Part shown: positions 7,010 through 33,068 of the stretch, piece after piece
How the letters are laid out: every line of letters begins with the position of its first letter
Numbering within the stretch: the first letter of the stretch is position 1
Virus record (IMG/VR): IMGVR_UViG_3300037070_003446
Location: 1-36,835 of that record
DNA: 36,835 nucleotides
Reading direction: 5' to 3' (one strand)
From: a virus
The notes under the pieces: model-generated
The model's database searches: none
What the model was told of the DNA's origin: nothing
The model's input: the letters and a program-made list of their open reading frames with translations, nothing else
Made by a program: the position numbers and the translations under genes

Positions 7010-8146
7010 TCAAGCATACATAGTCGCCAGAATATCCACAGCCTGCTCCTCCAGAACGGGTAGGAGATGTGCATAGGATTGCAGCGTAGTAGTTATATTG
7101 GCATGGCCTAAAATGCGAGAGACTACGTGTACCTGGATGCCACCAGCGAGCATCAAAGTTGCTGCGGTGTGTCGGGTATCATGGAATCTTATCCGAGGCA
7201 GCCCCGCCCTCTTTAGCACTACCGCGAAATACAACAGGATGTGCTCTCGGTTGATAGGCGCTCCATACTTCGTAGTGAACACATAGCCCGTATCTTTCCA
7301 CTTTACCTCTTCAGCCACATGCTCCCAATACTGCATGTCACGCCTCATGCGAAGGGCGGTGACTATCTGAGGTGTGAGGCGTAGGGTGCGATTAGAGGCG
7401 CTTGTCTTTACCTCAACCCGTACCTGTTTGCCCTCAATACGCTGGAGAGAGCCGCTAACCTGCATGGTGGCTTTGTCCAGGTCTACATCCTGCCAGCGCA
7501 GAGCCAGCAGTTCACCCTTCCTCAAACCGAGCGTCAAGGCTATCAGGTAGAGAGCATAGAACCTGTCTTCCCGCACAGCGTCAAGCAGAGCGCGCGCCTG
7601 CTCCTGGTCGAGGCAATGCATTTCGGTTCGTGGCACGCGGATACCGCCTGCTAACCGCCCCACGTTGCGGGGGATGTAGCCACGCTGCACGGCTGCCTCA
7701 AGGCACATTATGATTGTCACTCTGTATTGCTTGACTGTGGCAGGTGCTAGTCCCTTCTTGAGTTCGCTGGCTTGAAACCGCTCTATATCTTCGGCTGTAA
7801 GGCTCTGTAAGGGCACATGGCCTAATGAGGGAAGGATGTGCTTATGCACCCACACTGAGCGGTTAGCGAACGTTGTGGGCTTTACGCGGGGTTGTACGGT
7901 GTGGACGAACCAATGCTCAAGGAACTGCCCGAATGTCTGCTTATCCGTGCGCTGTTCTAGTGTGCCGGTGCGGTGTTGTTCTTGAGCGGCGCGTAGCTTG
8001 TCACGCACGGCTGCCTTCGTCTTAGCGTAAAGGACTTTGCGCCTGCGTTTGCCGTTAGCGTCGGTGTAGGAGAGAGACGCCACAAAGAGGCCATCAGACG
8101 CGCGTTGAAAAATGCTCCCATCTCCTGGAGATCGTCTCTTCGTCAC
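7010..8146 (-). CDS. int: Tyrosine-type site-specific integrase
   Basis: The 378-residue product is a full-length phage integrase. It has an N-terminal arm-binding-like domain (about residues 1-60), a SAM-like core-binding domain (about 70-160) and a C-terminal catalytic domain. The catalytic residues are visible: Arg209 in GLRKGE, Lys257 in VEVKTSA, His322 and Arg325 in HDTRH, His348 in LGHAN, and the nucleophile Tyr358. It would recombine attP with attB to establish lysogeny. It starts with GTG 8146, two bases after the stop of the upstream membrane protein gene, without a clear ribosome site, so translation is probably coupled. The gene is transcribed with the repressor and should be expressed in lysogens. 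Confidence 0.96.
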   Translation of the reverse strand: MTKRRSPGDGSIFQRASDGLFVASLSYTDANGKRRRKVLYAKTKAAVRDKLRAAQEQHRTGTLEQRTDKQTFGQFLEHWFVHTVQPRVKPTTFANRSVWVHKHILPSLGHVPLQSLTAEDIERFQASELKKGLAPATVKQYRVTIIMCLEAAVQRGYIPRNVGRLAGGIRVPRTEMHCLDQEQARALLDAVREDRFYALYLIALTLGLRKGELLALRWQDVDLDKATMQVSGSLQRIEGKQVRVEVKTSASNRTLRLTPQIVTALRMRRDMQYWEHVAEEVKWKDTGYVFTTKYGAPINREHILLYFAVVLKRAGLPRIRFHDTRHTAATLMLAGGIQVHVVSRILGHANITTTLQSYAHLLPVLEEQAVDILATMYA

Positions 8147-8148
8147 GG

Positions 8149-8655
8149 CTACTTCAGCACGAACGAAGCCGCGTCAAGCTCTATGGGGCAGTAGGTGAGA
8201 GCACAATTCACTTGCTTTATGAGGCCCGATACCGCTATTGCTTGCCCCTTGCTAATCTTCAGCGCGTCGTCTTTAGACACGTCCAACTTTACGTCGAAGG
8301 CATAGCCGGGGATAGGGTCTGCGGTGTCTACAGTGATCGTGTAGAGGTCGCTGAGGGGCTTCTGGTCTACGTTCTGGACTGTGCCCGGCCAGTCGGCTAT
8401 CTTCTTGCCCTTCAAGTCGGCGGCGTAGGCATCCCACTGAGCATCCGTCAGCGCCTTCTTTTGGGCGGCTATCGCTGCAAGTGCGGGAGCTGGGCCTGTA
8501 GCCACAGTAGCGGACTTCCCCCCACCTGACACGGCGTAGATAGTCCCGCCCACAATGGCTATCAGAACGACTATCCCCAGGATGGGGAGACAGCCTATGC
8601 GCCGCTTACGTTCTACGTAGACAACCTTCTCTTTAGTTGGTTTTCCATCTCCCAC
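8149..8655 (-). CDS. Membrane-anchored OB-fold-like protein, possible superinfection exclusion
   Basis: The 168-residue product has a basic N-terminus (KRKRR-type patch near residue 17), one membrane helix (about 21-44), an Ala-rich linker, and a C-terminal domain of about 90 residues. Its strands (KKIADWPGTVQNV, LYTITVDTADP, KGQAIAVSGLIKQV) resemble tRNA_anti-like OB folds. Two cysteines (NCALTYC) lie near the end. Lying between repressor and integrase, it should be made in the lysogen. Membrane proteins at this position often block superinfection, which is inference from context. It starts with GTG 8655 behind GGGAGGG. Confidence 0.75.
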   Translation of the reverse strand: MGDGKPTKEKVVYVERKRRIGCLPILGIVVLIAIVGGTIYAVSGGGKSATVATGPAPALAAIAAQKKALTDAQWDAYAADLKGKKIADWPGTVQNVDQKPLSDLYTITVDTADPIPGYAFDVKLDVSKDDALKISKGQAIAVSGLIKQVNCALTYCPIELDAASFVLK

Positions 8656-8670
8656 AGTCGCACCCTCCCA

Positions 8671-9045
8671 CTAGCCTAGTTTCGTCTCAATGTCCAATAG
8701 CTTTGCCAGTCGCACGAGCATTGCCTGGTCACTCTTGGGCAGGTTCGCCACGACTTCGGCGAAGGCTTCCGCGTCGCCTGCTTTGAAGTGTCTTGCAAAG
8801 CGTTGCCAGAGTTCGGCATGGTAGTTAGTGACCTCTTCTACTCCAGTCGGTGCTAGCTCTGTAATAGCCACACCCAGAGCATCGGCCAGCTTGCGCCGGT
8901 TCTCTAGCTTGGGTACGCGCTTTCCCGCTTCTATCAGGCTGATATAGCCACTATCGAAGCCTGCCTTTTCCGCTAACTGGCCCTGCGACCAGCCACGCGC
9001 CTCCCTCAATTCCTTCACACGTTCCGCAAGCGTAGCCCCTACCAT
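8671..9045 (-). CDS. cI-like lysogenic repressor (XRE HTH)
   Basis: The 124-residue product begins with an XRE helix-turn-helix: RVKELREARGWSQGQLAEKAG, then DSGYISLIEAGKRVPKLENRRKLADALGV. A helical C-terminal region may mediate dimerisation. There is no LexA-type peptidase domain, so induction would not use RecA self-cleavage. I chose ATG 9045 because TTGCAA (9081-9076), a 16-bp spacer and TATATT (9059-9054) place the transcript start within two bases of it. That gives a leaderless mRNA like lambda cI from PRM. A TTG at 9063 would lie inside the promoter. It diverges from the Cro-like gene across an operator region. Confidence 0.88.
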   Translation of the reverse strand: MVGATLAERVKELREARGWSQGQLAEKAGFDSGYISLIEAGKRVPKLENRRKLADALGVAITELAPTGVEEVTNYHAELWQRFARHFKAGDAEAFAEVVANLPKSDQAMLVRLAKLLDIETKLG

Positions 9046-9053
9046 GTAAGTAG

Positions 9054-9081
9054 AATATAACAATTGTTAGCTCCCTTGCAA
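9054..9081 (-). promoter_or_regulatory. Repressor promoter (PRM-like)
   Basis: Minus-strand -35 TTGCAA (9081-9076), 16-bp spacer, -10 TATATT (9059-9054). The predicted start is near 9047-9046, at the repressor ATG 9045. A perfect 12-bp palindrome lies between the two hexamers, so the repressor or the Cro-like protein could switch this promoter directly. Confidence 0.65.
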
Positions 9082-13154: not shown

Positions 13155-13208
13155 AGCCCCCACTCCCCCGCTTATCGGCTCGTGCCGGTGGGCGGGGGAG
13201 TGGGGGCT
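13155..13208. repeat. Perfect 17-bp inverted repeat hairpin without T tract
   Basis: The arm AGCCCCCACTCCCCCGC (13155-13171) is exactly complementary to 13192-13208. The 20-nt spacer holds a second stem (CGGC/GCCG with loop TCGT), so the whole element folds into an almost continuous rod. There is no T run after it, which argues against a classical terminator. It lies 14 bases after the SSB-like stop and just before the methyltransferase gene. It may stabilise the upstream mRNA, reduce read-through, or be extruded as a cruciform. Confidence 0.85.
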
Positions 13209-14087: not shown

Positions 14088-14113
14088 TGCTTGTGGGGCA
14101 TGAGGAGAGCGAA

Positions 14114-14374
14114 ATGAACGAAGCAAAGGTAAAGGCACTACTCCGAGATGTTATGGAGCTATGCCTGAGTATCACAGACTACAGCCGATACTTGGAAGAT
14201 AAGCGTTTCTACACGCCAGAAGACGAGCTAGAGCATCATCATGCCAAGCTTGACGACTGGAAGGCAGTCGCGCAGGACATACAGAACACGATGGGCGAGG
14301 CAGATATATACCCAGGCGTGTTTGACGACTTCCACGACGATGTGGTGAAGGAAATACTAGCAGAGGGAAAGTAG
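14114..14374 (+). CDS. Acidic helical hypothetical protein
   Basis: The 86-residue product is acidic and helical with aromatic residues (SRYLEDKRFYTPEDELEHHHAKLDDW). ATG 14114 follows AGGAGAG; the longer frame from 14006 overlaps the zinc-finger gene and is unlikely. No family is recognised. It is followed by a 259-bp region with unusual RNA-like structure. Confidence 0.65.
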   Translation: MNEAKVKALLRDVMELCLSITDYSRYLEDKRFYTPEDELEHHHAKLDDWKAVAQDIQNTMGEADIYPGVFDDFHDDVVKEILAEGK

Positions 14375-14418
14375 CCACGCTAGACCTGACAGCCTGAAGC
14401 ATGAGGAGTGAGCGCGAT

Positions 14419-14622
14419 ATGCACGAGGGGTGCAACCAATGTGTAAAAGGCAGGAGTATTACAGGGGGATGTGGTAACATGATTCTGTCTAGGGGAACAG
14501 GAGACGCGCGGCTTGCGCGGAATATCACAAATCAATATAATCAGATGTCGCACTCACCGTGCGTCTGGCCCTGTTTCCCTAGACAAGAAGCAATCCAGAC
14601 AAGCGGTGAGTGTGGCGTTTAA
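14419..14622 (+). CDS. Doubtful small Cys-rich frame inside structured region
   Basis: A frame of 67 codons starts MHEGCNQCVKGRSITGGCGN, with three cysteines that could form a zinc knuckle, and AGGAG lies ten bases before ATG 14419. The remainder has low-quality composition and coincides with two large inverted repeats, which suggests the region works as RNA or DNA structure rather than as protein. Included for completeness with low confidence. Confidence 0.2.
   Translation: MHEGCNQCVKGRSITGGCGNMILSRGTGDARLARNITNQYNQMSHSPCVWPCFPRQEAIQTSGECGV
14486..14612. promoter_or_regulatory. Two mutually exclusive hairpins upstream of HNH gene
   Basis: Hairpin A: 14486-14511 pairs with 14557-14585 (16 positions with one G-T, then ten with one G-T, separated by a three-base bulge) around a 45-nt loop. 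Hairpin B: CACTCACCG (14551-14559) pairs with CGGTGAGTG (14604-14612), and GTCTGG (14563-14568) with CCAGAC (14595-14600). Both use 14557-14568, so they cannot form together. Such a layout is typical of attenuators or riboswitch-like RNA switches. The next gene starts at 14634. A replication or recombination structure is an alternative. Confidence 0.6.
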
Positions 14623-14633
14623 GGGGTCGGACG

Positions 14634-15125
14634 ATGTTATTCAACGAGGCAAATATTCCACAAGCTATTCCAATGCGCGCTCCATGCGCAGCGTGTGGCT
14701 GCAATGAAGGCTATGTAACCGAGCGCAATGGGCAGGATGTCGTGCGCTGTAGCCGGTGTCACGGCTGGGCATACAATCAGCCGAAATCGGAGTCGGGCAA
14801 ACCGCAAAGGTCGGTCAGGACTCGCCCCGAAATCAGCCCTTCTCAAAAGGCGCGGATATTGGAGCGAGATAACGGCACTTGCGTGATCTGTCACTGTGAC
14901 GATAAGCCGCTTCATGTGGGGCACTTCCTGTCAGTGAATGACGCTAAGGAAGTGGGTGCAACCGAGGATGAGATATACGACGATGAGAACCTGGCTGCCA
15001 TGTGCGAAGAATGCAACCTGGGGCAGAGTAAGAGGTCGGTATCGTTGCGCCTCGTCTTTCATATCCTGCGAGCGCGGATAAAGCGTAAGCAGGACCGAAG
15101 GGAGGCGCGCAATGGGTGGGAGTAG
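14634..15125 (+). CDS. HNH nuclease with N-terminal zinc ribbon
   Basis: The 163-residue product has an N-terminal CAACGC and RCSRCHGW zinc ribbon (about residues 18-45) and a classic HNH nuclease: ARILERDNGTCVICHCDDKPLHVGHFL, then ENLAAMCEECNLGQSKR. The arrangement is of the McrA/HNH type and unrelated in layout to the two HNH_3 enzymes. It may be a homing enzyme, a recombination nuclease, or a packaging-linked HNH acting with the terminase. ATG 14634 follows AAGGGG. The ATG at 14610 would start within the flanking RNA structure. It overlaps the primase start by 14 bases. Confidence 0.85.
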   Translation: MLFNEANIPQAIPMRAPCAACGCNEGYVTERNGQDVVRCSRCHGWAYNQPKSESGKPQRSVRTRPEISPSQKARILERDNGTCVICHCDDKPLHVGHFLSVNDAKEVGATEDEIYDDENLAAMCEECNLGQSKRSVSLRLVFHILRARIKRKQDRREARNGWE

Positions 15126-17415
15126 CCACGCACAGAACTTTCCTTCACCCCTCGTGACACAGCCCAAGTGGATTGTTTGGAAGTACGAGAATAAGCCGGG
15201 GCAGCCAAAGCCGACGAAAGTACCTTACGCGCCAAACGCAAAGGGACACGTCAAGGCGGCATCCGACGATCCCTCTACCTGGACTACCCTTAGCGTAGCT
15301 CGCACCGTTGCAGCCTCGAATGGCTTTGACGGGCTGGGCTACGTTATGACGGTGGACGACGGCATTGTATTTATAGACCTGGACGGCTGCCGGGATAAGG
15401 AAACGAGTGCAATCGCGCAGTGGGGACAGGAGATTATTGACGAAATCAACTCCTACACCGAGCTATCGCCTTCGGGCTGCGGTGTGCATATCTTCGCGTA
15501 CGGCGCTGTACCTGAGAATAAAGGGCGCAAGCGTGGTGGTGTGGAGATGTACGCGACGGGGCGCTATGCCACTATGACAGGGCAGCACGTACCAGGCACA
15601 CCTAAAACGATAGAACACCGAGAGGATGAGTTAGCAGCGTTGCACCTGCGAGTGTTTGGCGCTCAGGAACCGGAAAGGCCACATATCCCGCAAGGTGGGA
15701 CCGGTAATCTATCGGATGAGGATATTGTCAGGATTGCGGGGCGGGCTGCGAATAGCGCGAAGTTCAAACGGCTATGGTCGGGGAACACGTCCGGCTATGC
15801 GTCACGCTCTGAGGCTGATATGGCACTCCTTGATATACTCGCCTTCTATACCAGTGACAACGGCCAGCTTGACCGCCTGATGTATCAGAGTGGCAGCGAG
15901 CGGTGGGAAGGGCTGCCGCGGGGTACTCGTAAACATGACATAGAAAAGGCTGTGAGAGGGACTGGCGCGCGCTTTGGTGACAACAGGCGCAACAGGCAGG
16001 GAACTAAGGAAGGGCAACCTCCACCGAGCGCAGAGCTTGATAGCCGGATAGACATCCTGAAAGACGCTCCCCTTTCTGATACGGGTAATGCTGAGTGTTT
16101 AGAACACCTTTTCGGTGGTGACTTTCGCTTTGACCATACGCGCCGAAAGTGGCTTGTGTGGGCAGGAGCGCACTGGCAAGTTGACGAGGATGGGCGGGTA
16201 GAACGTGCTGCAATCGAAGTTATAAGGGAGCGCAAAATAGCGGCTCTTTCGCTTGTGGATACCGAGCGCCAGCGCAAGATGATAAGTTACCTGATCGGCG
16301 CTGAGAACGCCTCCAAGCAAAGGGGCTTGCTTACGCAGGCATCCGTGCTGCGCTCCTTTGCTACCACGATTGCACGCTTCGATATTGAGCATGGTGTGGC
16401 CGGTGCGCCTAATGGCCTACTGGACTTGAATGCGGGGCTACTCTATGAACCGAGCAAGGACGACCTGATAACTATGTGCCTCGGAACACCCGTCAACCTG
16501 GAGGCATCCTGCTCTCGCTGGCGACGGTTCCTAAATGAAGTGTTCGCAGACGACCAGGAGCTTATAGCATTCATTCAGCGCGCGATAGGCTACTCACTGA
16601 CCGGCGACACCTCAGAGCAAGTTATGTTCTTGTGTCACGGCTCAGGGGCGAACGGGAAAAGCGTATTTCTGGAGACACTGGGGCTGGTGCTCGGTGACTA
16701 CAGCGCAGGCACGCCTTTCGCGACCTTTGATGCTGACCGGCGCAACGAGTCGACTAACGACCTGGCCGCGCTAAAGGGTAAGCGGTTTGTGACGGTGATC
16801 GAGTCGGACGAGGATCGGCGACTAGCCGAGGCGCGCGTCAAAGCTGTGACAGGGCAGGACCGGATAACGTGCCGATTCCTTTACGGCGAGTTCTTTACCT
16901 ATGAGCCGACATTTAAGCTATGGATGGCTATGAACCATAAGCCCATTATCCGGGGCACGGATCGGGGTATCTGGCGACGTATAAAGCTGATCCCGTTTAC
17001 TCAGAACTTTGAGGGGCGTGCTGAGGATAAAAACCTCAAAAGTGAGCTGAAAGGGGAATTATCAGGCATCCTCAATTGGATTTTGGAAGGGCTGCAAGCA
17101 TGGCAAAAGAACGGATTAGGGAGTGCAAAGGTAGTCGAGGCTGCGACCGAAGAATACCGCAAGGAGTCGGACATCCTGGGGCAATGGTTCAGCGATTGCG
17201 CGGCCTCGTCGCCCGGCAGTTTCACCACCGCATCAGAGGCATTCGACTCATTCCGCAACTGGTGTAAGAGCTTCGGTTTCAAGGAACCGACGCAGACCGG
17301 ATTTGCTCGAAGTCTGGTAGAACATGGCTATGAAAGGGGGACGGAGCGCAACAAAAGAGGTTATAAGGGCTTTATTCTGGTCGTGCCGGATGTGGATTTG
17401 GGGAAAACTTCGTGA
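15112..17415 (+). CDS. Primase-helicase (prim-pol plus SF3/D5-type helicase)
   Basis: The 767-residue product has an N-terminal prim-pol-type primase (about residues 10-175): IDLDGC (metal site, about 87) and SPSGCGVHIF. A linker helical region follows (SEADMALLDILAFY). The C-terminal half is a superfamily 3 helicase of the P4/D5 type: Walker A GSGANGKS (about 510), then VIESDEDRRL and the arginine-finger region NHKPIIRGTDRGIWRRIKLIPF. It would prime and unwind the phage origin. GGGAGG lies before ATG 15112. Iteron-like repeats begin 16 bases after its stop. Confidence 0.95.
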   Translation: MGGSSHAQNFPSPLVTQPKWIVWKYENKPGQPKPTKVPYAPNAKGHVKAASDDPSTWTTLSVARTVAASNGFDGLGYVMTVDDGIVFIDLDGCRDKETSAIAQWGQEIIDEINSYTELSPSGCGVHIFAYGAVPENKGRKRGGVEMYATGRYATMTGQHVPGTPKTIEHREDELAALHLRVFGAQEPERPHIPQGGTGNLSDEDIVRIAGRAANSAKFKRLWSGNTSGYASRSEADMALLDILAFYTSDNGQLDRLMYQSGSERWEGLPRGTRKHDIEKAVRGTGARFGDNRRNRQGTKEGQPPPSAELDSRIDILKDAPLSDTGNAECLEHLFGGDFRFDHTRRKWLVWAGAHWQVDEDGRVERAAIEVIRERKIAALSLVDTERQRKMISYLIGAENASKQRGLLTQASVLRSFATTIARFDIEHGVAGAPNGLLDLNAGLLYEPSKDDLITMCLGTPVNLEASCSRWRRFLNEVFADDQELIAFIQRAIGYSLTGDTSEQVMFLCHGSGANGKSVFLETLGLVLGDYSAGTPFATFDADRRNESTNDLAALKGKRFVTVIESDEDRRLAEARVKAVTGQDRITCRFLYGEFFTYEPTFKLWMAMNHKPIIRGTDRGIWRRIKLIPFTQNFEGRAEDKNLKSELKGELSGILNWILEGLQAWQKNGLGSAKVVEAATEEYRKESDILGQWFSDCAASSPGSFTTASEAFDSFRNWCKSFGFKEPTQTGFARSLVEHGYERGTERNKRGYKGFILVVPDVDLGKTS

Positions 17416-17431
17416 AAATCCAAGAAAATCA

Positions 17432-17553
17432 ATACAGGTTTGATACAGGTTTCGTGCGTAAAATACAGGTTGAGGTTCTGTACAGTAAAGTCCCTCATGC
17501 GCACGCATAATTACCATTTTACCCCAAAAACATGTAAACCTGTATACCTGTAT
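17432..17553. repeat. Iteron-like ATACAGGT repeats, possible replication origin
   Basis: ATACAGGTT occurs directly at 17432, 17443 and 17463 (11 and 20 bp apart) and inverted as ACCTGTAT at 17538-17545 and 17546-17553 (8 bp apart). A CTGTACAG palindrome lies at 17478-17485. The region is AT-rich and non-coding, directly downstream of the primase-helicase gene. Clustered direct and inverted repeats next to a replicative helicase gene are typical of origins, though a regulator operator is possible. Confidence 0.6.
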
Positions 17554-17556
17554 ATT

Positions 17557-17661
17557 ATGGGAAATAGTAGAAGTAAGTCCAAAAGAGAGAACCAAACACA
17601 GCGCCAGGACAAGACGGCGGGCAAGACAAGCTGGAAAGGGGTAGACAGTGAGCAAAGTTAG
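17557..17661 (+). CDS. Very small basic protein, doubtful
   Basis: ATG 17557 opens 34 codons (MGNSRSKSKRENQTQRQDKT and onward), highly basic and polar. There is no clear ribosome site. It overlaps the next small frame by 14 bases. Probably short coding or noise between the iterons and the next genes. Confidence 0.25.
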   Translation: MGNSRSKSKRENQTQRQDKTAGKTSWKGVDSEQS

Positions 17662-19769: not shown

Positions 19770-19811
19770 GGTCACACGAACTCACCACAGCGTGAGGGGT
19801 GTGGCCTTTTT
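19770..19811 (+). terminator. Intrinsic terminator in the late-operon leader
   Basis: GGTCACAC (19770-19777) pairs with GTGTGGCC (19799-19806) with one G-T pair, CTCAC (19781-19785) pairs with GTGAG (19792-19796), and TTTTT follows (19807-19811). It lies between the late promoter and the terminase start, so transcription must be antiterminated or only partly blocked here. Confidence 0.8.
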
Positions 19812-19824
19812 GCATTTCCACCAT

Positions 19825-20274
19825 ATGAGCGAAAGCAAGACTAGTGAAAAGCGAATAGAGGCTGTAGACCGCCAACAAGCCGCCCTCGAATTGCGACGGG
19901 ATGGCTTAGGCTTTGCTGAGATAGCAGCACGGCTCGGCTATGGTGGGCCGAGCGGCGCATACAAAGCCGTTATGGCTGGCCTCCACAAAACGCTCAGAGA
20001 ACCTGCCGCCGAACTCCGTAACCTTGAACTAACGCGCCTTGACGATATGCTAAAGGCTACATGGGGTGCAGCCCAAAGAGGCGTACCGCAGGCTGTAGAC
20101 CGCGTACTCAAGATCATGGAACGTCGCGCTAAGTACCTCGGCCTGGATGCCCCTGCTACCGTGAATATCAATATCAGGCAGGAAGCAACACGCATGGCCG
20201 AAGACTACGACCTAGACCCTGACGAACTCATAGCCGAAGCAGAGCGTATCGTTATGGAGTATCCTGTTGGCTAG
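19825..20274 (+). CDS. terS: Terminase small subunit
   Basis: The 149-residue product has an N-terminal helix-turn-helix (ALELRRDGLGFAEIAARLGYGGPSGAYKAV, about residues 20-50) and a helical oligomerisation region, then a DLDPDELIAEAERIV tail. It precedes the large terminase subunit with overlap, the usual arrangement. It would recognise the packaging site. ATG 19825 is in the short stretch after the terminator; the frame from 19792 would begin within the terminator. No Shine-Dalgarno is visible. Assigned by HTH plus context. Confidence 0.8.
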   Translation: MSESKTSEKRIEAVDRQQAALELRRDGLGFAEIAARLGYGGPSGAYKAVMAGLHKTLREPAAELRNLELTRLDDMLKATWGAAQRGVPQAVDRVLKIMERRAKYLGLDAPATVNINIRQEATRMAEDYDLDPDELIAEAERIVMEYPVG

Positions 20275-30701: not shown

Positions 30702-33068
30702 ATGGCAAGCAAAGCAGCCGTAGAGTTAGTGGTCGAACTGGACGACAAAGCCAGCAAGGGGATGGACAACATCGCCAAGAAAGGCGGCGGCCTCGGTAGC
30801 TTGTTTGGAGGGCTCCCCGACCCTATCGGCTTGGTCACGGGGGGGATAGTGGCGCTTGGTGGGGGGCTGCTACTGGCGGGGAAAGCGGCGGCTGAGGAAG
30901 AGGTAGGAATGAACCGCCTCCAGCAGACGCTAAAGAACTCGGTGAAGGGGTATGACGAAGCGACGGCGGGTGTTGAGGACTATATTGCCAAACAAACCAA
31001 GCTCGCCTTTGCAGATGACCAGTTACGCGACTCGCTAAACTTCCTTGTCAGTCAGACGGGCGACCTGAAAGAAGCTCAGGAGCTACAAGCAACAGCAATG
31101 GACCTGGCGCGTGCTAAGGGCATTACGCTGGAACAGGCGACACGGGCTGTGGGGAAGGTGGACAACGAAAGCATCGGTATCCTCGGCAAGCTAGGTATCG
31201 CGATTACAGAGAACATGACGAAGGAAGAGGCGTTGACTGCTATCAGGGCAGTATCGGCGGGGCAGGCAGAGCTTTACGCTAACAGCGCAGCCGGTTCTAT
31301 GGAGCGGCTTCAGAACACGTTCGGCGACGTGGTAGAAGACATAGGCGGGCAGATACTCCCCATGCTAACGGCGGCGCTTGCGGGGGTTGCCGAGTTCATG
31401 TCGTCACCAGGCTTTCAGGCAGGCTTTGAAGCTGTAGCTGATGTGGTGGGGAATGTGTTGGTCGGCGCATGGAACGCGCTCAGTGGCGTTGTCACGGCGG
31501 TATGGCCTACCATTCAGGCGGTGTTTACGTACCTGACCAGTCCTGAAGTGATAGCTACAATCACGGCTATTGCTATGGCGCTGGGGGATACGCTAAAGGG
31601 TGCGTGGGACTTTCTTTCCAGTGCGGCTCGTGATGCCTGGAACAACGTTCTTGAACCTATCTGGAAATGGTTCAGCTCGACAGACGTGCAGAAGACCATA
31701 GGCGAGATAGCTAAAGGCCTGGGCACGGTCCTGAAAGTAGCATGGGACACGCTCGGAGATGTTGTGAAGGGTGTTTGGGACGGCATCCTGAAGCCAATAT
31801 GGGATTGGTTCTCATCAACAGACGTGCAGAAGACAATAGGGGAGATTGCCGATGCGCTGGGCAAGATACTGAAGACAGCCTGGGACGTGCTGAGTGAAGC
31901 GGTGAAGATCGCGTGGAACAACGTACTGCTGCCTATCTGGAACTGGTTCACCAGTGAGACGGTATCGGGAATAATCGGCACGATTGCCGCAGTTCTAGGC
32001 ACAACGCTAAAGACTGCATGGGATGTCCTTTCGACTGCGGCGAGCATCGCCTGGAACGGGGTATTGAAGCCTATATGGGACTTCTTTACCTCTGACCCTG
32101 TCTCAGGTGTGATAGGCACAATTGCAAGTGCGATAGGTACAACCCTGAAGACAGCCTGGGATGTCCTCTCCACAGCAGCAAAGGCAGCATGGGACTTTGT
32201 ACTCAAGCCTATCTGGGATTTCTTTACGAGTGAGACGGTATCCGGCTTTATAGGCACAATAGCCAATGCGCTCGGTGTCATATTGGGTGGGGCGTGGGAT
32301 GTACTCAAGCTAGCAGCCACAACTGCGTGGGGTCTGCTGAAAGGTATTTGGGACTTCATCACCGGCTCATTCGGCAAGGTAGGGGAAGCCATAAGTGGCG
32401 TAGCAAACATTTTCAAGAACATTCTAGGCGGGGCCTTCGATGCTGTGTTCACGGCGGCTAAAGCGGCGTGGGACCTCCTGAAAGGTGTGTGGGACTTCTT
32501 TACCGGGGGCGGGCATGATGACGTAGGTTCCGGGATGGATGAACTCAGAGGGCCGATGAAGGCCCTAGAAGACCAGTTCCGCGACCTGGGCGCAATGGCA
32601 TCCAAAGTAGCGGGGCAGATTGCTCAAGGTCTGCAAGGGATTATTAACGATGTAAACAACGCATCGAAAGCCATTGGCAATATGCCCAAAGCACCCACAG
32701 GTGGCGGTGGAGGCGGGGGCGGAGGCGGGGGCGGGGGAGGTACAGGGGGAGACGGGCGCACCGAACATGAAAGCGGCAGAGCATACGGCGGCCTCGTCTT
32801 AGGTGGCATGCCCTACATAGTCGGGGAGCGCGGGCCTGAGCTATTCATGCCAGGACGAACAGGCACTATAATCCCTAACCATCGCCTACGGGGGAACGCG
32901 GGAATAATGCCCATAGACGAGGGCGGGGGCAGGGGCACTAAAGGCAACTGGACTATAAACGTATACGCAGGTATAGGCACGGACGGCAGGCACGTTGGCC
33001 GCACGGTGGTAGACGTGCTGAACGAGGAGTTAGGGTTGGACCGCAGGGCTACTTCGTGGGCTACGTGA
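30702..33068 (+). CDS. Tape measure protein
   Basis: The 788-residue product, the second-longest in the genome after the tail-tip protein, starts with a coiled-coil/hydrophobic region and a typical early segment (LRDSLNFLVSQTGDLKEAQELQATAMDLARA). From about residue 295 it has five copies of a 46-residue repeat of the form AWDVLS...AWN.VLKPIWDWF....V...IGTIA.ALG..LK and two weaker half units (to about 605). A poly-Gly run (about 668-681) and the GERGPELFMPGRTGTIIPNH end are characteristic. It sets tail length. At about 0.15 nm per residue a tail near 118 nm is suggested, as inference only. Confidence 0.93.
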   Translation: MASKAAVELVVELDDKASKGMDNIAKKGGGLGSLFGGLPDPIGLVTGGIVALGGGLLLAGKAAAEEEVGMNRLQQTLKNSVKGYDEATAGVEDYIAKQTKLAFADDQLRDSLNFLVSQTGDLKEAQELQATAMDLARAKGITLEQATRAVGKVDNESIGILGKLGIAITENMTKEEALTAIRAVSAGQAELYANSAAGSMERLQNTFGDVVEDIGGQILPMLTAALAGVAEFMSSPGFQAGFEAVADVVGNVLVGAWNALSGVVTAVWPTIQAVFTYLTSPEVIATITAIAMALGDTLKGAWDFLSSAARDAWNNVLEPIWKWFSSTDVQKTIGEIAKGLGTVLKVAWDTLGDVVKGVWDGILKPIWDWFSSTDVQKTIGEIADALGKILKTAWDVLSEAVKIAWNNVLLPIWNWFTSETVSGIIGTIAAVLGTTLKTAWDVLSTAASIAWNGVLKPIWDFFTSDPVSGVIGTIASAIGTTLKTAWDVLSTAAKAAWDFVLKPIWDFFTSETVSGFIGTIANALGVILGGAWDVLKLAATTAWGLLKGIWDFITGSFGKVGEAISGVANIFKNILGGAFDAVFTAAKAAWDLLKGVWDFFTGGGHDDVGSGMDELRGPMKALEDQFRDLGAMASKVAGQIAQGLQGIINDVNNASKAIGNMPKAPTGGGGGGGGGGGGGGTGGDGRTEHESGRAYGGLVLGGMPYIVGERGPELFMPGRTGTIIPNHRLRGNAGIMPIDEGGGRGTKGNWTINVYAGIGTDGRHVGRTVVDVLNEELGLDRRATSWAT

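Follow-up and report, generated by a model that had tools for sequence, protein, structure and literature searches.

In trp-type attenuators, alternative 1:2 and 2:3 pairings give a central strand two competing partners 5' of the regulated genes. Phage translational operators include pseudoknotted mRNA leaders, such as that of T4 gene 32, and IscB is accompanied by a structured RNA, named HEARO or omega RNA. Structure between cistrons is also found in T7 early RNA, which undergoes RNase III processing there, and, at the DNA level, attC sites carry the RYYYAAC/GTTRRRY core. The origin of plasmid pRN1 is a 100-nt stem-loop and its replication protein combines an archaeo-eukaryotic primase with an SF3 helicase; by prediction, phage BIP-1 has a large stem-loop beside such a primase/helicase gene, and in both cases the stem-loop is positioned 3' of the gene (PMC4234260).

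The window analysed here is the entire IMG/VR record IMGVR_UViG_3300037070_003446, 36,835 bases long; its ends carry a 126-base direct repeat, so that it probably represents a complete phage genome. The phage is temperate and encodes a tyrosine integrase plus a repressor at 7010-9063, on the - strand. From 9158 on, after this block, the genes run in the + direction, and the run also holds the portal, protease, major head and tape-measure genes; the element studied here should therefore be transcribed in the + sense, and from gene order we infer that it lies within an early (replication) operon on the + strand (Table 1). No promoter-like or terminator-like site was found at the element on the + strand, and the element would thus be a passage point within the operon; likewise, no terminator-like site was found on the + strand between 13000 and 15200, and no T run follows either hairpin in the sequence. 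Elsewhere in the genome, tandem repeats of roughly 138 bp (46 aa), in which tryptophans are conserved, occur within the tape-measure gene (31635-32504). The gene at 19792-20274, immediately 5' of the large terminase gene, has a match (E 1.8e-29) to phrog_645, a family that carries the label RNase E; its location makes a small terminase the likelier identity, and the PHROG label is possibly mistaken.

Table 1. Coordinates of the features at and around the element (window numbering).
Feature	Position	Strand	Description
Methyltransferase gene	start 13219	+	
Gap	14375-14633	+	259 nt, from gene 14114-14374 to the HNH start codon; holds the whole element
Weak 67-aa ORF	14419-14622	+	spans the element; stop abuts the HNH Shine-Dalgarno stretch; possibly no gene
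Segment 1	14486-14511	+	5' arm of hairpin A: outer 14486-14501, inner 14502-14511
Mini-hairpin CGCGC-GGCTT-GCGCG	14505-14519	+	available if segment 1 is outside A
Segment 2	14543-14568	+	5' strand of hairpin B; within it, 14557-14566 doubles as 3' strand of the A inner half
Hairpin A outer half, 3' strand	14570-14585	+	begins 1 nt past segment 2
Segment 3	14595-14620	+	3' strand of hairpin B; ends immediately before the Shine-Dalgarno stretch
HNH Shine-Dalgarno-like AAGGGG	14621-14626	+	from sequence and leader comparison; ATG at 14634
Phage HNH endonuclease gene	14634-15125	+	phrog_144, E 1.4e-8; N-terminal zinc-finger-like cysteines
P4-family primase-helicase gene	15112-17415	+	D5_N, NrS-1 polymerase-like HBD, TIGR01613
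Large terminase gene	20267	+	

Hairpin A was recovered exactly as the initial annotation had described it, with 26 pairs between 14486-14511 and 14557-14585. They divide into an outer half of 16 pairs, one of them G-U (14486-14501 with 14570-14585), and an inner half of 10 pairs, again including one G-U (14502-14511 with 14557-14566); a bulge of 3 nt lies at 14567-14569. Hairpin B is present too, and its size had been understated at 9 + 6 pairs (14551-14568 with 14595-14612): in + RNA the stem joins 14543-14568 to 14595-14620 by about 24 pairs (18 bp, a 2x2 loop and 6 bp), extending outward via 14543-14550 with 14613-14620 and also through 14560-14603, and it encloses another small hairpin. 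Since the two hairpins overlap at 14557-14568 only, the mutual exclusivity claimed for them holds for nested hairpins, whereas the outer half of A is compatible with the whole of B; the 3' strand of that outer half starts just past segment 2, so the two can coexist in an H-type pseudoknot. Positions 14543-14556 of segment 2 lie in the loop of hairpin A and are a possible toehold. The mini-hairpin of segment 1 has a counterpart, CGCAC-TCACC-GTGCG, at 14549-14563; the two are inverted copies that differ at one pair, a double change (G-C vs A-T) seen in this single instance.

These pairings exceed those of shuffled sequence. A 181-nt fold of the + strand gave a z of -3.8, and none of 200 shuffles folded as well. 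When the 3' partner was shuffled 1000 times, none of the shuffles reached the duplex of A (-55 kcal/mol vs -27 +/- 4) or that of B (-41.7 vs -26.7 +/- 3.9 kcal/mol); folded alone, A and B gave -54 and -45 kcal/mol. The genome was also scanned for segments pairing strongly with both their upstream and their downstream neighbour, scored as triplets: on the + strand the three top positions, which overlap, are all at this site (-44.0, -42.7 and -40.3) and the next-best site is at 2299 (-40.2), a clear lead if not a huge one, while the sites of the - strand are weaker and located elsewhere. The free ensemble over 14375-14680 contains A at 0.86 and B at 0.14, and ensembles forced into A or into B lie 0.1-2.0 kcal/mol apart across six window choices; a random segment 3 would pair less stably by about 15 kcal/mol, so this near-equality is unlikely to arise by chance, and it is approximate, as nearest-neighbour models err by several kcal/mol at such size. 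Between 20 and 55 C the B-A difference is 0.7-1.5 kcal/mol, so that the balance shifts little, and RNA thermometer behaviour was not found over this range. The shared-strand alternative pairing first noticed at this site is thus real, has near-equal energies and ranks top on the + strand of the 36.8-kb genome.

Coexistence of B with the outer half of A would give a pseudoknot whose loops are 41, 1 and 9 nt long; a rough hand sum of stem energies and a standard pseudoknot penalty puts it near -66 kcal/mol, compared with -59 kcal/mol for A and -58 kcal/mol for B. Such an H-type pseudoknot, here with connecting loops of 1 and 9 nt, would be shared with operators of the T4 gene 32 type, and the locus resembles that system also in being a structured leader directly 5' of a nucleic-acid enzyme gene; the stems here, however, are far longer, there is no known binding protein, and the accessibility of the Shine-Dalgarno stretch is predicted to be unchanged.

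ORF 14419 is the only frame spanning the element. If it were a real gene for a small cysteine-containing protein, the structure would lie within coding sequence, and translating ribosomes would open the stems and re-initiate at 14634, coupling HNH translation to its own. It has a Shine-Dalgarno-like GAGGAG 10 nt before its ATG and a leader similar to that of gene 14114, its stop abuts the HNH Shine-Dalgarno stretch, and adjacent small genes also encode CxxC proteins. Its codon statistics, however, tell against such a gene: the coding score (-0.27 vs 0.26 +/- 0.12 for known genes) and the synonymous score (-0.136 vs 0.087 +/- 0.074) are about 3-4.5 sd under those of known genes, and in the phase model its value of -0.079 is lower than that of any of the 21 early genes tested, and the frames contrast little. 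It matched no protein family, and in phages, plasmids and IMG/VR no homologue appeared besides one identical contig. Judged by its sequence, ORF 14419 is probably not a gene and the coding alternative is improbable; the remark that the region has no convincing gene is supported. The leaders of gene 14114 (14098-14118) and of ORF 14419 (14399-14421) both have GCATGAGGAG and a similar stretch, as if duplicated.

As to whether the element acts as RNA or as DNA, the + strand out-folds the - strand as RNA (-66 vs -59) and likewise as DNA. Within the contiguous cores of the stems, the arms differ at seven pairs (14495, 14508, 14544, 14546, 14548, 14550 and 14560), every one of them G-U in + RNA; a strand-neutral extension of the stems gives 8 G-U to 4 A-C, which is non-significant. 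Being limited to pre-chosen cores, the G-U excess was dismissed as proof of RNA function and is taken as a hint; together with the better + folding, it lends mild support to an RNA role in the transcription sense. The wobble changes and indels that distinguish the arms make an inversion artefact of MDA or assembly unlikely. An attC or integron-like site, that is, an imperfect inverted repeat with bulges, was also discarded, the core of such sites being absent from the arms when inspected by eye.

Another reading places the role at the DNA level: the hairpins could be a cruciform, a single-strand initiation site, an operator or a recombination site for the primase-helicase or for another phage protein. 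Large stem-loops, predicted in the case of BIP-1, lie beside such genes in BIP-1 and pRN1 (PMC4234260); as at the pRN1 origin, the structure here is of about 100 nt and near a gene for an AEP primase and SF3 helicase, but it lies 5' rather than 3' of the gene, its folding prefers + strand RNA, and the 3' position is held by a separate iteron array. Indeed, the region directly 3' of the primase (17418-17560) is AT-rich (32% GC) and non-coding, and at 17432-17553 it carries a strong iteron array, five copies of ATACAGGT, three direct and two inverted, which was matched in none of 100 shuffles and, in a separate test, in none of 300. The highest 8-mer count is 5 in this flank vs 2 in the hairpin region, where no such repeat occurs and where the several short repeats adjoining the primase that mark the iteron origin of P4-type primase phages were not found. 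Relatives of the primase, mostly with 31-37% identity, were collected at 71 distinct loci: a significant repeated 8-mer is present within 400 nt 3' of the primase at 47 of them and on the 5' side at two, with up to 9 copies on the 3' side and a sequence that differs from phage to phage. This pattern suggests that the origin lies just 3' of the primase throughout the family, and 17432-17553 is most likely the replication origin of this phage. Given the location of the array, an origin at the hairpins, offered initially as an alternative, is unlikely, and a DNA-level element of any of the kinds listed is quite improbable. A possible likeness of GGGGAACAGG to P4 iterons was dropped.

The HNH protein (163 aa) is of the usual phage HNH type. 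In the NCBIfam IscB model the HNH part alone matches (E 6.8e-6, 25 vs 175 bits, far under the cut-off), and the protein has no match in Pfam, hence neither a RuvC domain nor the N-terminal domain of IscB was found. The locus therefore resembles HEARO/omega RNA in having a structured RNA directly 5' of a gene with a related HNH domain, but it differs in its protein and in its RNA: no adjacent IscB gene was found, and the HEARO covariance model gave no match even at E <= 5. With neither a Pfam match nor a HEARO RNA match, an RNA-guided system is unsupported. The whole window has no Rfam match at gathering score; at E <= 5 the sole matches were the microRNA models RF03992 and RF03777, far under their gathering scores and from non-bacterial families, and they were set aside. 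No riboswitch family or conserved ligand-binding core was matched in Rfam, and a ligand-binding riboswitch is unsupported.

The attenuator or riboswitch of the initial annotation survives in part. Alternative pairing, the lack of a convincing gene and the operon position directly before the HNH gene all stand, and the central strand with two competing partners 5' of the regulated genes is that of trp-type attenuators. In contrast to these, a terminator hairpin, a U-tract and a leader peptide with regulatory codons are absent, and the only ORF spans the whole element; the shared-strand exclusive pairing of a transcription attenuator was thus found and its intrinsic terminator hairpin was not, nor was any Rfam family. 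The Shine-Dalgarno stretch is predicted to be unpaired at 0.69 in A and 0.70 in B, so that sequestration of the ribosome binding site in one state only was not found, the classical attenuator or riboswitch output is unsupported, and the output step is conjecture. The contrast between the states lies in the 35 nt before the Shine-Dalgarno stretch, mostly single-stranded in A and locked in a stem in B; for this reason, control of ribosome loading on HNH was picked as the likeliest output.

A stem between cistrons may also serve RNase III-type processing or mRNA stability, with no need for switching, and cleavage would create a separate 5' end for the HNH-primase message. This is the main rival explanation, although a fairly unlikely one: each stem exceeds two helical turns and is intercistronic, and a second long intercistronic hairpin (13155-13208) precedes the methyltransferase gene in the same operon, but the complementarity of segment 3 to segment 2, equalled in 0/1000 shuffles, would be unexplained unless B were the processed stem. 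The hairpin at 13155-13208 is GC-rich, with 25-nt arms (88% complementary) and a 4-nt loop, and is the most stable local hairpin genome-wide; its 3' arm contains the likely Shine-Dalgarno region of the methyltransferase gene and no T run follows it.

Searches for homologues by DNA, by arm sequence and by the ORF 14419, HNH, primase, terminase, 12497 and 14114 genes gave one identical contig for this region. This sole relative, IMGVR_UViG_3300037119_003639, comes from a metagenome; it begins at 14551, inside the element, and is identical over the overlap, with one difference at the far end. Its start within the element could perhaps reflect structure that impeded sequencing or assembly. The other 12 matches to the arm pattern were rejected as unrelated sequence lacking the partner arm, and long hairpins 5' of the primase in distant phages provided no counterparts, those examined being high-GC, coding or terminator-like. 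The single known population, with no variation, and the fact that segments 1, 2 and 3 resemble inverted copies of one unit would suit an old inverted duplication, with the three segments as diverged copies and no present function. Such a relic is nevertheless quite improbable: 259 nt is a long gap in a compact phage operon, and decay should show no preference, yet both pairings are near-perfect in + RNA.

The explanation that we tentatively favour, without regarding it as established, is a cis-acting mRNA structure of the early operon that sets expression of HNH and, via the gene overlap, of the primase-helicase. Its observed or computed parts are the two competing pairings with their energies, the rarity of such pairings in this genome, the position and the overlap of 14 nt between the two genes. 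Segment 2 would pair with the upstream segment 1, giving A, or with the downstream segment 3, giving B alone or B with the outer half of A as a pseudoknot. A would form first, since its 3' strand is transcribed earlier than segment 3; this segment would then enter at 14543-14556, in the loop of A, and displace the inner half. With A formed, the roughly 35 nt that lead up to the Shine-Dalgarno stretch (14586-14620) would be single-stranded and ribosomes would load, while in state B a long stem ending at that stretch would lower translation of HNH and primase, the control being relayed to the latter by the overlap. The scheme presumes an RNA that is actually made and populates both states, an effect in this direction and some factor that shifts the balance.

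An RNA switch at the element is thus plausible, if unproven. The stricter version of it, a true bistable switch in which the downstream strand invades A via the loop toehold, forms a competing hairpin or a long pseudoknot and so sets the output of nuclease and primase with neither a terminator nor Shine-Dalgarno sequestration, is unlikely as a whole. The most fitting description of the element is an orphan mRNA structure, bistable or pseudoknotted, that precedes the HNH and primase genes. The short iterons that immediately follow the primase gene mark the likely origin across a large phage primase family, a side result that may be of wider use. No Rfam family exists for a position like that of the hairpins; if real, they would constitute a compact and testable phage mRNA in which two near-equal folds time the nuclease and the primase.
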